DNA from: Bacteroidota bacterium
GTDB lineage: Bacteria > Bacteroidota > Bacteroidia > B-17B0 > Aurantibacillaceae
Direction of reading: 5' to 3'
Assembly (NCBI GenBank): GCA_013697245.1
Contig: JACCXH010000074.1
Span: 1-40,436 of the forward strand
DNA: 40,436 nt
Positions 24,885 through 33,447 of this stretch are shown here, in pieces. The notes under the pieces are model-generated. The model saw only the letters and a program-made list of their open reading frames with translations, was not told the origin of the DNA and did not search any database. Made by a program: the position numbers and the translations under genes. Position 1 is the stretch's first letter. Each line of letters opens with the position of its first letter.

Positions 24885-25654
24885 TAGTTAAATAAATACC
24901 TCGAATTAACCCTGCTTAAAGAAAATGCCCTGTGCTGTTTTACAACTTCACCAATAATGATGACGGCAGGCGCTTGTATATTTTCTTTTTCGGAAATCCC
25001 CACAATTGTATCAATTGTTCCTAATGCAATTGCCTGATTTGGCAAAGAACCATTTTGAATTAATGCTACAGCAGTATTTCCTTTATTTTCTTTTTTAAAT
25101 ACCTCTGCTATCTCTTTTAATTTCGATAGTCCCATCAAAATAACTACTGTAGCATTTGTTTTGGCAGCCAATAAAACATCTTGAGACAATTTATTTTCTT
25201 TTGTTGTACCTGTAATTACCCAAAAACTTTCGCTTACACCACGATGTGTTACGGGTATACCACTTAATGCAGGAACACCAATGGAGCTAGAGATCCCCGG
25301 CACAACCTGTGTTTCAATATTAAACGCATAAGCATAATCTATTTCTTCCTGGCCACGGCCAAAAACAAAAGAGTCGCCACCTTTTAAGCGTACAACGTGA
25401 CCATGCGTAAAAGCAAGGTCAATTATCAAGGAGTTAATTTGTTCTTGTGTATATGCATGTTGATGATTACGCTTGCCAACATAAATTTTTAAAGCATTAG
25501 CAGGTGCAAAGTTTAATAGTTCTTTATTTACAAGTGCATCATATAAAACAACATCTGCCGTTTTTATAGCATTAAGGCCTTTAAGTGTTATTAATTCAAT
25601 ATCGCCGGGACCGGCACCCACAAGGGTTAATTTTGGATTTATAGTTTGTGACAT
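24884..25654 (-). CDS. cobA: Uroporphyrinogen-III C-methyltransferase
   Basis: 256 residues, SAM-dependent methyltransferase that makes precorrin-2, the first step to siroheme. LTLVGAGPGDIELITLKGLNAI, VVLYDALV, VRLKGGDSFVFGRGQEE, VPGISSSIGVPALSGIPVTHRGVS and VILMGLSKL are the family signatures. With the CysG-like domain encoded two genes downstream it supplies siroheme for the adjacent sulfite reductase. It is separated from that gene by 136 bp that hold a Cys-rich leader peptide and two interleaved hairpins, so its expression may be adjusted independently of the upstream part of the operon. Confidence 0.95.
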   Translation of the reverse strand: MSQTINPKLTLVGAGPGDIELITLKGLNAIKTADVVLYDALVNKELLNFAPANALKIYVGKRNHQHAYTQEQINSLIIDLAFTHGHVVRLKGGDSFVFGRGQEEIDYAYAFNIETQVVPGISSSIGVPALSGIPVTHRGVSESFWVITGTTKENKLSQDVLLAAKTNATVVILMGLSKLKEIAEVFKKENKGNTAVALIQNGSLPNQAIALGTIDTIVGISEKENIQAPAVIIIGEVVKQHRAFSLSRVNSRYLFN

Positions 25655-30244: not shown

Positions 30245-31495
30245 TTAAGTGGTTGCTAATTGGTTTTCTTTTTTAATGCTTTGAATGTTTTTTATATTTA
30301 AACTTATTTTGTCATTTACTAATGAAATAAATAAGCTGTTCGTTAATATATAATCTCTGTTCTTTATGATATTTTCCAGATTCACTTTACCTACAACGTA
30401 GTTGTAATCGCCGCTGTTATATTTTTCTGAAATTTCTTCAAATTTTATTTTTTCGAGGTCAGCATTTGAATTGTATCTAAAATAAGCCGTAATAATTACA
30501 TCGTTCGTAAAATCAGAAGCGTGTTTTTGCACATGTTTTTTATACTCGTATTTGTAACCATGAGAAAGAGCTGAAATGTCAGACAGCACTGCGGCTCCTG
30601 TTGGATAACTTCCCGCACCCCTTCCTTGTAAAAATTGTTCTCCCGAGAATTTACCTTCTACTATTACGCCATTGAACTCGTTCTCTACATTAAACAATTG
30701 GTTTGTGTCTTTTACAAAACGTGGCGTAACTAATACACCAACTTTATCACCATCTAGTCGCTGAATAACCGGAGTTAATTTTATTTTGTATCCTTTCTCT
30801 GAAGCATATTTAATATCATTTTCGTGTAAAGTAGTTATACCAAGATTTAATACCTCATCGGGTTTAATAATTAAGCCAAAAGCGTGAAGGGCAATAATTA
30901 CGGCTTTAAATTTAGGGTCAAAGCCTTCAACATCGTTTGTTGGGTCGCTTTCTGCAAAACCTTTTTCCTGGGCTTGTTTTAGCGCAACCGGATAAGATAG
31001 TTTTTCGTTAATAGTTTTGGTTAAAATATAGTTGGTTGTCCCATTAAAAATTCCCGACACTTTTTCTAATTCTTCATTATCAAAATATTCTTCAAGCGTT
31101 CTTATGATGGGAATGCTGCCACCCGCAGAGGCTTCGTACAATAAGGATACATTGTATTTTTGTTGTAACGCATAAAGTTCCTCTAAATGAATGGCTAACA
31201 TTTTTTTGTTAGCGGTTACCACATGCTTACCTTTTTTTAATGCCTCGCTCACAATATTAAATGCCTCTTCAGCATCATCTATTAGTTCAACGATCACATC
31301 GATCTCGGGATTATTTAATATCTCGTATTTATCAAAAGTAATAAGGTCTTTTGAAACACTGCGTTCTTTGGTTTTGTCTTTAACCGCAATTTTTATGATA
31401 TCTGCCTTAAAGCCGGTGCTATTATTTAACACATAGTGCAAACCCTGGCCAACACAGCCAAAGCCGAATAAACCTATTTTTAATTTCTTTGCCAT
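30245..31495 (-). CDS. hom: Homoserine dehydrogenase
   Basis: 416 residues. It reduces aspartate semialdehyde to homoserine. The nucleotide-binding GLFGFGCVGQGL is at 8-19, followed by VVTANKKMLA, YEASAGGSIPIIRTLEEY, GIFNGTTNYILTK, AESDPTNDVEGFDPKFKAVIIA and GRGAGSYPTGAAVLSDI, all family signatures. The C-terminal 80 residues may be a reduced ACT-like regulatory part. There is no fused aspartate kinase. It lies 12 bp after metX, so homoserine formation and its acetylation are co-expressed. Confidence 0.95.
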   Translation of the reverse strand: MAKKLKIGLFGFGCVGQGLHYVLNNSTGFKADIIKIAVKDKTKERSVSKDLITFDKYEILNNPEIDVIVELIDDAEEAFNIVSEALKKGKHVVTANKKMLAIHLEELYALQQKYNVSLLYEASAGGSIPIIRTLEEYFDNEELEKVSGIFNGTTNYILTKTINEKLSYPVALKQAQEKGFAESDPTNDVEGFDPKFKAVIIALHAFGLIIKPDEVLNLGITTLHENDIKYASEKGYKIKLTPVIQRLDGDKVGVLVTPRFVKDTNQLFNVENEFNGVIVEGKFSGEQFLQGRGAGSYPTGAAVLSDISALSHGYKYEYKKHVQKHASDFTNDVIITAYFRYNSNADLEKIKFEEISEKYNSGDYNYVVGKVNLENIIKNRDYILTNSLFISLVNDKISLNIKNIQSIKKENQLATT

Positions 31496-31506: not shown

Positions 31507-32577
31507 TTAATTATTAGTTTTTTGTAAATTATATTTATTTTTTTTTATTTTTTCATTCTCGTAATAATCTAAAATTACTTTTGTCAGTTTTTCAGTCTCA
31601 ATTAAAAAGCCATCATGACCAAAGGCCGAATCGATTTCTGAGTAAGCTGCGTTCTTAATGTTCTTTGCAAGGAACTTTTGTTCTGTTAGCGGAAATAGAA
31701 TATCTGTTGTTAATCCAATTACCAAAGTATTGGCTTTAATTTGTTTTAAAGCTTGCTCTTTTGTTTCGGCTCTATTTCTCGCAACATTATGGCTATCCAT
31801 AGCATCTAGCAATCTTACATATGAATAGGCATTAAAACGGCTCACTAATTTTTCGCCCTGATAACGCTGATATGAAGCAGAAGCATAATTGCTTGTTTTA
31901 TTATAATTCTTGTCTTCTTGCGTTTCATCATACGTTGCATAACCCCTGTAACTTAACAGAGCAATACTTCGTGCTGCTGAAAGCCCTTTTCTTGCCGCAT
32001 CAATTGTATTTGAATAATACGTTCTGTCTGCTTTTATTGCCAGGCGTTGCGATTCGTTAAAGGCTATTCCCCATGGAGAATGCTGGGCGTTGGTGGCTAT
32101 CAAAATTAAATTTTCAACGAGGTCTTTATTTTGAAGCGCCCATTCCATTGCAATTTGTCCGCCTTGCGAACCACCTATTAACGTGTGGATCTTATCAATT
32201 CGTAAATGATCTTTTAAAAGTTCTAACGAAGCAACAATGTCTTTAATTGTTATCTGTGGAAAATAATTGAACCAGGCTTCTTTCGTTTCGCTATTGGTAC
32301 TTAAAGGACCGGTGCTGCCATAGCATGAACCTAAATTATTGGCGCACACAATAAAATGCTCTTTTGGATTGTAAAGATCGTTCTCGCCAAATAAACCTTT
32401 CCACCAATCAAACACATTGCTGTTTGCGGTTAAAGCGTGTGCCACCCAAATAACATTGTTGCGCTCTTTATTAAGTGTACCAAATGTTTGATAGGCGATT
32501 TCAATTCCGGGAAGTGATTGCCAGTTTTCTAATTGAAAGCGTTTGGTATATGTAAAAGTTGATAAGCTCATTTTCAA
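31507..32577 (-). CDS. metX: Homoserine O-acetyltransferase
   Basis: 356 residues, alpha/beta-hydrolase fold. It transfers an acetyl group from acetyl-CoA to homoserine, opening the methionine branch. The oxyanion/N-terminal region HALTANSNVFDWWKGLFGEN, NNLGSCYGSTGP and the nucleophile Ser137 in LIGGSQGGQIAMEWAL are present; the Asp is in TTDILFPLTEQ and the His in SAFGHDGFLIE. The first two codons (MK) could be skipped for an ATG two codons later. The acetylated product is probably used by the MetZ-like sulfhydrylase of the cys operon. Succinyl-CoA specificity cannot be excluded from sequence alone. Confidence 0.93.
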   Translation of the reverse strand: MKMSLSTFTYTKRFQLENWQSLPGIEIAYQTFGTLNKERNNVIWVAHALTANSNVFDWWKGLFGENDLYNPKEHFIVCANNLGSCYGSTGPLSTNSETKEAWFNYFPQITIKDIVASLELLKDHLRIDKIHTLIGGSQGGQIAMEWALQNKDLVENLILIATNAQHSPWGIAFNESQRLAIKADRTYYSNTIDAARKGLSAARSIALLSYRGYATYDETQEDKNYNKTSNYASASYQRYQGEKLVSRFNAYSYVRLLDAMDSHNVARNRAETKEQALKQIKANTLVIGLTTDILFPLTEQKFLAKNIKNAAYSEIDSAFGHDGFLIETEKLTKVILDYYENEKIKKNKYNLQKTNN

Positions 32578-32585
32578 ATGTTTTT

Positions 32586-32825
32586 TTAGTTATTAAATAT
32601 ATTACCCGAAAAAATTAATTGTTTTTTTTCCTGCGAGGTTAAAAAATTTATATCACTCGCCAAGCGGTTAATGTGCGAAGGAATAATATTATGAGGAAAA
32701 GCACCACCACGTTGAGCGATCCCAAATTCTGCCTGAACTTCTAAAAAATTTCTATGTTCTTTTTCGCCAAGTAAATTAATACTGTTCAATGCGCTTATGT
32801 ATTTTGGTTTATTATTGTTATTCAT
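32586..32825 (-). CDS. 79-residue protein of unknown function upstream of metX
   Basis: The frame starts with an ATG at 32825 after an A-rich stretch and ends 8 bp before the metX start, which is operon-like. The sequence has an Asn-rich start (MNNNNKPKYI) and a patterned body (LLGEKEHRNFLEVQAEFGI, PHNIIPSHINRLASDINFL). No signal peptide, membrane segment or cysteine pair is seen, and I recognise no family. Its position directly behind the SAM riboswitch and leader peptide makes it the first full gene of the methionine operon. It could also be a degraded fragment. Confidence 0.6.
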   Translation of the reverse strand: MNNNNKPKYISALNSINLLGEKEHRNFLEVQAEFGIAQRGGAFPHNIIPSHINRLASDINFLTSQEKKQLIFSGNIFNN

Positions 32826-32846
32826 GATTTCTTGTTTTTATTTGAG

Positions 32847-32926
32847 TGAAGTGATCTTGCTCTACTTCATTCTGATTAATAAATTGTAATTGAAGAGATG
32901 CGAAATTCTAAACTGTCGAATGCATC
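32847..32926 (-). other. Structured untranslated region between leader peptide and first met-operon gene
   Basis: On the transcript GATGC-ATTC (32926-32918) can pair with GAAT...GCATC (32908-32897), nine pairs with a 3-nt bulge. Further on TGAAGT (32869-32864) pairs with ACTTCA (32852-32847), 22 nt before the start codon at 32825. Neither is followed by a U-run. Just upstream, 32922-32952 reads as TTGGCAACCTGGGGCAAA within a longer G/C-rich block that stands out from the AT-rich surroundings. Confidence 0.45.
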
Positions 32927-32986
32927 AAAATTTGCCCCAGGTTGCCAAGGTTAAATTTTCCAATAAAATTTTTGAGGAAAACTAGC

Positions 32987-33097
32987 TTAGCAAATGCAGC
33001 AACAGCAACATATACAACAAGCCATCATTAAAAAAGAATTAGAATTAAATCTTTTTGACTGAGCGTCGTTTTGTTTTTTTGAATTTGTGTGTTTCAT
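32987..33097 (-). CDS. Cys-rich leader peptide behind the SAM riboswitch
   Basis: A 36-codon frame from ATG 33097 to TAA 32987. It begins MKHTNSKKQNDAQ and ends with MMACCICCCCCIC, i.e. eight Cys codons and two Met codons in the last thirteen. Its start codon lies 9 nt after the 3' arm of the riboswitch closing stem, so riboswitch state may influence its translation. Stalling at the Cys run would signal shortage of Cys-tRNA to the methionine operon. Confidence 0.8.
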   Translation of the reverse strand: MKHTNSKKQNDAQSKRFNSNSFLMMACCICCCCCIC

Positions 33098-33106
33098 TTT
33101 TTCTTA

Positions 33107-33240
33107 TTTAATTTATTTTTCTCCGTTTTTCATCGGAGTAGGAGTTGGCACCTGTTTTCCAATTTCGTTTTATCGAAACTTTTAGTTGGTTGCCAGTGGG
33201 TTAATGAGCCTATTCTCTCGCCACTTCTTAATAAATTAAA
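33107..33240 (-). ncRNA. SAM-I (S-box) riboswitch
   Basis: Transcript order: P1 5' arm UUUAAUUUAUU (33240-33230); AAGAAGUGGCGAGAGA; GGCUCAUUAACCCACUGG; the invariant-looking GGCAACC; P3; AGGUGCCAACUCCUAC, matching the S-box GGUGC-AA-UCC core; P4 CUCCG/CGGAG (33138-33134 with 33125-33121); P1 3' arm AAUAAAUUAAA (33117-33107). All eleven P1 pairs are perfect. The kink-turn region reads CAUUAA instead of the usual GAUGA, a divergence from consensus. No U-run follows, so it probably does not work as a simple intrinsic terminator. It controls the metX-hom operon. Confidence 0.88.
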
Positions 33241-33268
33241 ACACACATTGGGTGGTTTTAATCTTCCA

Positions 33269-33300
33269 CAAATTTAAGCTATTTATTTTTACACTTCCAA
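33269..33300 (-). promoter_or_regulatory. Probable promoter of the methionine operon
   Basis: TAAATTTG (33276-33269) is a full match to TAnnTTTG; TTG at 33300-33298 lies 21 bp upstream. The start site would fall about 20 nt before the SAM riboswitch. From 33301 to 33447 I see no further feature. Confidence 0.55.
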
Positions 33301-33447
33301 ATAAATTTTAAAATAAATTGCTTTTTGTAGTATTAGCGGGCGCTTTGGGCGATAAAGATCCGGTTAGAAAATCACCTTTTTAGATCTTTTTTTGATGAAT
33401 TGAGGGTTTGGGTTTTTTTGCCTGCTTAAAATTTTGTAAATTGAAAT

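Follow-up and report, generated by a model that had tools for sequence, protein, structure and literature searches.

Why does a SAM-I riboswitch stand directly in front of a short frame that ends in a run of Cys codons, and how might such a pair control the methionine genes behind it? The question arises on the minus strand of a 40 436-nucleotide contig (JACCXH010000074.1, hereafter the window) from a bacterium of the Aurantibacillaceae (Bacteroidota), where a predicted promoter, a SAM-I aptamer, an A-rich linker, a Cys-rich leader frame, a gap of 161 nt between the leader stop and the next ATG, a frame of 79 amino acids, metX and hom follow one another in this order (Table 1). The Rfam covariance search matched RF00162 over its full length (67.4 bits, with the gathering score at 44.4), and membership of the SAM-I class rests on this score above the curated threshold and on the methionine genes metX and hom downstream. 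A first-pass annotation had drawn the aptamer at 33107-33240, followed by a 36-codon leader with eight Cys and two Met at 32987-33097 and by metX and hom, and the Rfam match (E 9.5e-14), the open reading frame and the NCBIfam and Pfam matches agree with it on all of these points; the idea would have been refuted by the lack of a score to the SAM model, which the 67.4 bits exclude. It had also placed the leader ATG 9 nt behind the aptamer, and here the close spacing stands but the figure does not, the distance being 12 nt from the Rfam end (the annotated aptamer ended slightly later). The 79-amino-acid frame was missing from its list.

The leader reads MKHTNSKKQNDAQSKRFNSNSFLMMACCICCCCCIC, with the C-terminal end MMACCICCCCCIC, its eight Cys and two Met residues lying near the end. 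The predicted promoter lies about 170 nt upstream of the leader AUG, the 5' end of the message being predicted from sequence only. A motif of this type (TTG-N17-23-TAnnTTTG) was found 27-37 nt upstream of the aptamer in 44 of the 48 leader loci of the window's family, against 0.42 expected from shuffles, and TAnnTTTG is the Bacteroidota promoter consensus as printed in PMC9723704. The same genome contains a second RF00162 match (L002, 60.9 bits) before a metH-like frame, with a hairpin and U-run readable downstream of the aptamer; no leader was found behind it.

Table 1. Features of the locus within the window (all on the minus strand).
Feature	Position	Sequence or detail	Basis
Bacteroidota-type promoter (predicted)	33269..33301	TTTG 33298-33301, 21 nt, TAAATTTG 33269-33276	Read from sequence
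SAM-I riboswitch aptamer	33110..33237	RF00162	67.4 bits, E 9.5e-14
P1 3' arm and A-rich linker before leader AUG	33098..33117	AAUAAAUU, then 12 nt AAAUAAGAAAAA	
Cys-rich leader frame	32987..33097	36 codons	ORF; comparable leader at 47/49 metX/metY sites of the family
Likely sensing codons	32990..33028	Met-Met-Ala-Cys-Cys-Ile-Cys5-Ile-Cys	Sequence; third-position bias in family leaders
Start-closing helix (predicted), 5' strand	33016..33028	AUGAU and CUUGUU	Duplex −12.3 kcal/mol with 79-aa start region
Start-closing helix (predicted), 3' strand	32824..32836	AACAAG and AUCAU, covering AUG of 79-aa frame	
Three possible hairpins, leader stop to 79-aa frame	32897..32981	UUUUCC/GGAAAA; CCUUGG/CUGGGG; GAUGCAUUC/GAAU..GCAUC	Reading by eye and single folds; absent from RNAalifold output
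79-aa frame	32586..32825	First frame 3' of leader; no Cys, no internal Met	
metX, homoserine O-acetyltransferase	31507..32571		NCBIfam TIGR01392, E 3.3e-100, under its curated cut-off
hom, homoserine dehydrogenase	30245..31495		Pfam PF00742; NCBIfam NF004976 over cut-off

The arrangement is shared by the relatives of the window's genome. Of 87 genomes searched for RF00162 in the window's family, 77 gave a match (under stricter filters, with some weak matches lost). A single script sorted all 130 listed matches, 8 of which fell short of the cut-off. A leader was scored where an ATG lay within 30 nt of the aptamer end and opened a frame of 9-79 codons whose last 20 include three or more Cys; gene names were given by motifs of our own choosing, ten examples being compared with NCBIfam. 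Leaders were found at 35/37 metX and 12/12 metY sites (47/49 together), at 0/58 metH and 0/4 CGS-like sites, and at 1/19 sites left unnamed by the motif rule, the exception (L006) having a next frame that is metX-like by eye. The two leaderless metX sites comprise one with a run of N in the frame (L017) and one with a related frame containing two Cys (L045). The Cys frame is thus conserved in relatives, where its absence would have spoken against the first-pass annotation, and chance is a very unlikely explanation because the leader recurs behind 47 of 49 aptamers of this kind.

Behind the aptamers of metH and CGS-like sites a terminator-like hairpin was found instead by a rule of our own (55/58 and 4/4 sites respectively), although the same rule was also positive at 13/48 family leader loci and is therefore permissive. 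MetH uses homocysteine and fixes no sulfur, and for this reason an aptamer with a hairpin only, as found at metH sites, fits the general picture. Three other loci (L011, L193 and L198) combine a SAM-I aptamer, a hairpin and U-run and a protein that looks by eye like a methyltransferase. A further one (L062, G032:C34:1852-1976) has a leader-type aptamer, behind which no Cys leader was found, and a next frame with a start like that of a secreted protein; it resembles a relic of duplication.

In the 48 family loci the leader ATG lies 3-15 nt (median 13) from the aptamer end, and the leaders are 29-54 codons long with 3-9 Cys (mean 6.7) and, in 48/48, a Met within the last 14 residues. If the short frame encodes a leader peptide, it should be conserved upstream of pathway genes and hold several codons in a row for one of the pathway's amino acids, as the 47/49 sites do, and it should be under selection as a peptide and not only as RNA. 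The latter is borne out by the last ten codons of close family leader pairs, which showed 481 third-position differences against 200 and 207 at the other two positions, and 350 silent changes against 200 that were not (the pairs are not independent, and no formal test was made). Both Cys codons are in use, with 329 TGT and 282 TGC in the 98 leaders collected overall. Similar in-frame inserts (IGDV.IAIAS.ASR) occur in the leaders of L049 and L067 but not in that of L066, which is close to L067; perhaps a small repeat has moved in here and left the reading frame intact.

How a stalled ribosome on this leader could reach the genes behind it was left unsaid by the first-pass annotation, which offered no output mechanism; the start-codon helix described below was added by the present analysis. 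Between the leader and metX or metY a frame of 60-85 amino acids is present in 41/48 family leader loci, the window included. These 41 frames, 68-81 amino acids long, are devoid of Cys over 3126 residues and have a single internal Met, compared with a crude background of 1.23% Cys and 1.21% Met in frames of at least 180 amino acids of the window, and the gene behind the 79-amino-acid frame is likewise poor in both (0.59% Cys, 0.49% Met). The protein had no Pfam match and no NCBIfam match worth keeping, and its single-sequence fold was poor (mean pLDDT 51). Homologues were detected in 10/395 genomes of the class, nine of them from the window's family; the sole match outside (L384, G097:C10, about 24940-25146) lies behind a different short frame in a genome whose one listed aptamer match is on another contig.

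In the window, the region around the first Cys codon is predicted to pair with the start of the 79-amino-acid frame through an interrupted helix of two pieces, 5 and 6 pairs long. In the family, pairing probabilities placed the partner segment mostly at −15 to +5 relative to the first Cys codon, and helices that differ in sequence occupy the same two places (e.g. L028, L042, L049 and L061). Pairing of this kind was evaluated in 97 loci by a duplex test in which the first Cys codon and the 33 nt upstream of it were set against windows along the untranslated region (L125, with a miscalled next start, was left out from this test onward; L118, with a 358-nt gap, was left out of the pairing-probability, cluster-permutation and ribosome-model analyses). 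The gain in duplex energy of a locus's own leader over foreign leaders peaked at the AUG, and in the family the own leader gave −9.0 against −4.9 kcal/mol for foreign ones and was better in 92% of 48 loci. When loci were grouped by average linkage on whole-UTR identity (48 family loci, 13 clusters), own and cross energies were −8.58 and −5.62, with 10/13 clusters in the expected direction and three against it (permutation p<=5e-5 with 20 000 permutations; rank test 0.007). This clustering replaced an earlier one of only three clusters, with which the pairing test gave p=0.17.

The energy of the window's own helix is equalled by 13% of codon shuffles of the leader segment (p 0.13), and p<=0.05 was reached in 18/48 family loci. 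The RNAalifold output for 22 family loci contained only weak local structure, without any long-range helix. A ribosome was then represented by 28 closed nucleotides, with the opening energy of the start region as readout. The family mean was 4.82 for the naked RNA and 2.89 with the ribosome at the first Cys codon, compared with 4.46 at the stop, 5.05 fifteen codons upstream and 4.56 in mid-intergenic position; a drop of at least 2 kcal/mol was seen in 19, 2, 4 and 1 of 48 loci with the ribosome at the first Cys, at the stop, fifteen codons upstream and mid-intergenic respectively. The window followed the same course (5.3 naked, 3.0 with the ribosome at Cys, 4.2 at the stop). Taken as a prediction from sequence comparison and folding models, the start-codon helix is well supported in the window's family.

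Beyond the family the evidence for this pairing is weak, and other outputs are likely there. The duplex test on 49 loci of other families gave no group effect (−6.32 against −6.11; own better in 41%), and the cluster test (48 loci, 35 clusters) gave −7.09 for own and −6.27 for cross pairs, with 19/35 in the expected direction, a permutation p of 0.004 and a rank test of 0.14. The effect of a ribosome at Cys was small (3.60 to 2.99), 6/48 loci being opened. In single folds of three of nine named records, leader sequence adjoining the Cys codons does pair with the next gene's start (L189, 12 bp; L113 and L084, 8 bp each, by our own count), and nine helix examples from other families, picked for pairing in earlier folds, serve as illustration and not as a count.

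SAM is the last product, Met the direct product and Cys the neighbouring sulfur amino acid, and the locus may be read as testing them in turn. Unless SAM is low, the SAM-bound aptamer would stabilize P1 about 12 nt before the leader AUG and block ribosome entry; at low SAM, P1 would not be held and the leader would be translated. Without a ribosome on the leader, or with quick passage, the first-Cys region would pair with the start of the 79-amino-acid frame and close the operon's first start. A ribosome waiting for Cys-tRNA (or Met-tRNA) at the Met and Cys codons would cover the 5' strand of the helix and free that start, and full expression of the operon would require both low SAM and a shortage of Cys or Met. 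We give a probability of roughly 0.6 to this reading of the locus as a two-step sulfur sensor acting on translation, in which SAM binding, blocking by P1, stalling and the coupling of the 79-amino-acid frame to metX are inferred and expression is untested; the aptamer, the frame, their spacing, the association with metX and metY and the species-specific pairing in the family are established, as far as sequences can establish them. Pairing between leader and start is a likely output of the tandem in the window's family, and is newly proposed here.

The nearest competitor keeps the SAM gate and the Cys sensing and moves the output to transcription, with Rho or a weak hairpin stopping the polymerase before metX when the leader is either not translated or translated without hindrance, and stalling preventing this stop. 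Space for this exists, since 78-196 nt separate the leader stop from the next start in the 48 family loci, with possible hairpins where these were read; the permissive terminator rule was positive at 13 of these loci, and in L384, from another family, the homologue of the 79-amino-acid frame is preceded by a short frame containing three Cys and by a hairpin with U-run. Against it, a terminator behind P1 or behind the leader was looked for in the window and discarded, a scan of 32500-33400 for intrinsic terminators having returned no site, and the GC-rich hairpin with U-run before the structural gene that marks trp/his-type attenuation was not found there. The first-pass annotation had likewise seen no U-run behind P1 or P4, which the empty scan bears out only in part: loops of 3-8 nt alone were considered and the longer-looped hairpin of L002 was missed, so the test is a weak one. 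An output through transcription would moreover leave the start-codon pairing without a role, and we regard it as unlikely, if the least unlikely of the alternatives.

It is a good deal less probable that the aptamer acts alone, P1 closing the leader start and thereby lowering message stability or coupling, while the Cys frame merely hands ribosomes on and its Cys codons sense nothing. Control by a riboswitch through a small upstream frame has been published for a B12 riboswitch, by re-initiation from stop to start (PMC11260477); in the window, however, the 161 nt between leader stop and next start are too far for such a stop-start overlap. That Cys runs recur across families while the remaining peptide varies, and that they are written with both Cys codons, also tells against a leader without a sensing role. 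A Cys-rich peptide that is itself the product, e.g. a small metal- or thiol-binding protein, would agree with the 3-9 Cys per family leader, but the Cys run at the frame end, the variable N-terminal part and length (29-54 codons) and the tie in cis to a position behind the aptamer make it very improbable.

Each part of the preferred reading, the two-step sensor acting on translation, has precedents. In erm-type translational attenuation a ribosome stalled on the leader frees a closed start codon. This agrees with our reading in the opening of the start and differs in the trigger, an antibiotic in erm and not a missing charged tRNA. Control of translation by SAM-I through P1 is a described mode (PMC2258182), and the present aptamer resembles RF00162 members in score for sequence and structure and in the methionine genes downstream, while the start next to P1 is here that of a short regulatory frame and not of an enzyme gene. 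Cys leader peptides are known in Actinobacteria, in Mycobacterium without a conserved terminator hairpin (PMC1262725), and polycysteine leaderless short ORFs are known in mycobacteria (Canestrari et al., 2020). They share with our leaders short frames upstream of sulfur genes in which Cys codons form runs towards the end; unlike the leaderless ORFs, the frame of the window, judged by its predicted promoter, would not be at the 5' end of its message, and it lies behind a riboswitch and belongs to another phylum. The uORFC-8-2 before cysS in Rhodobacterales also contains Cys codons, two in tandem, with an intrinsic terminator and, in the accessible part of the paper, no mention of a riboswitch (PMC8632094). 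For Flavobacterium psychrophilum, leader-peptide attenuation before amino-acid operons has been stated in general terms (PMC9723704).

The closest relay is that of ppe2 in M. tuberculosis, where a B12 riboswitch controls a translated uORF on which the downstream gene depends (PMC11260477). The likeness lies in this dependence; in ppe2, however, translation re-initiates at an overlapping stop and start, an arrangement that the window does not have, and no run of amino-acid-sensing codons is noted in the accessible part of that report. The view of the first-pass annotation that no case with this logic had been described therefore survives within the literature searched only, with the B12 relay through a uORF already in print. 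No paper visibly joining a SAM riboswitch to a Cys leader was found in that search, which left out most subscription papers. SAM-I, Cys leaders and the relay from riboswitch to uORF are known, and their arrangement in series is absent from the literature searched.

None of the 29 new RF00162 loci that scored best across 395 genomes of the class has a Cys leader (0/29), and most of them lie before metH-like frames. A dedicated covariance model, covering the leader-type aptamer and the leader start and built from 37 sequences, was therefore run against the same genomes, 254 of which gave a match, metH-type aptamers included. Eighty loci of other families (20 returned by the model search and 60 hand-picked, with some better scorers skipped, hence not a random sample) were inspected for a leader on lenient criteria: a start no more than 60 nt away and three or more Cys, including an adjacent pair towards the end of the frame. 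A Cys-rich leader was present in 41/80, a few of them weak (e.g. L266 and L295), and these 41 loci span 14 families (f2, f5, f15, f20, f29, f31, f34, f35, f40, f41, f45, f48, f49 and f63). A pattern scan of named genome contigs gave at least 118 stretches and at least 19 short Cys-rich frames behind the core motif, nine of which were used, all with RF00162 above gathering (9/9), the other 10 being excluded on a rough criterion or by visual inspection, without an Rfam check. The named records with a leader, at least nine, include Pontibacter sp. E15-1, Cesiribacter andamanensis, a Fluviicola, a Lewinella and Saprospirales. As best NCBIfam matches over the curated cut-off, the next genes encode O-acetylhomoserine sulfhydrylase (L042) and, in other families, PAPS reductase (L248) and a YfhL-type ferredoxin (L145); below the cut-off they resemble MetX (L016 and L189), O-succinylhomoserine sulfhydrylase (L113) and NirA/sulfite reductase (L118). 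The tandem is common but not universal, because in other families a clear Cys leader is missing from some metX, metY or CGS-like loci (e.g. L241, L260, L281 and L290).

The same type of P1 also occurs directly before the ATG of long frames, at 7 nt (L259), 9 nt (L305) and 19 nt (L243), which fits the expectation that P1 closes an adjacent start. With the spacing, the contrast to metH sites and the starts of L259 and L305, gating of leader translation by the riboswitch rather than termination, as first inferred from the window alone, is the best-supported reading. The recurrence of aptamer and Cys frame suggests that two sulfur signals are read in succession before the genes switch on. That this is a composite of the whole phylum Bacteroidota, in which SAM-I gates an amino-acid-sensing leader in a serial test of SAM and then of Cys- or Met-tRNA, with the Cys-free small protein belonging to the window's family, we hold to be an evenly balanced proposition. 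If true, a riboswitch and a leader-peptide attenuator, usually treated as alternatives, would be wired in series in a large bacterial group, with no protein regulator needed to combine the SAM and cysteine signals that bear on metX, metY and sulfate assimilation. This would be an RNA gate with two inputs found in nature, and it would draw attention to short regulatory frames of a kind that is easily overlooked. One locus of another family (L279, f54) has, behind a leader-type aptamer and before a metY-like gene, a frame ending MCSPSMRMRMPMSCFSYMCA that is rich in Met and not in Cys, possibly a switch of the sensed amino acid.
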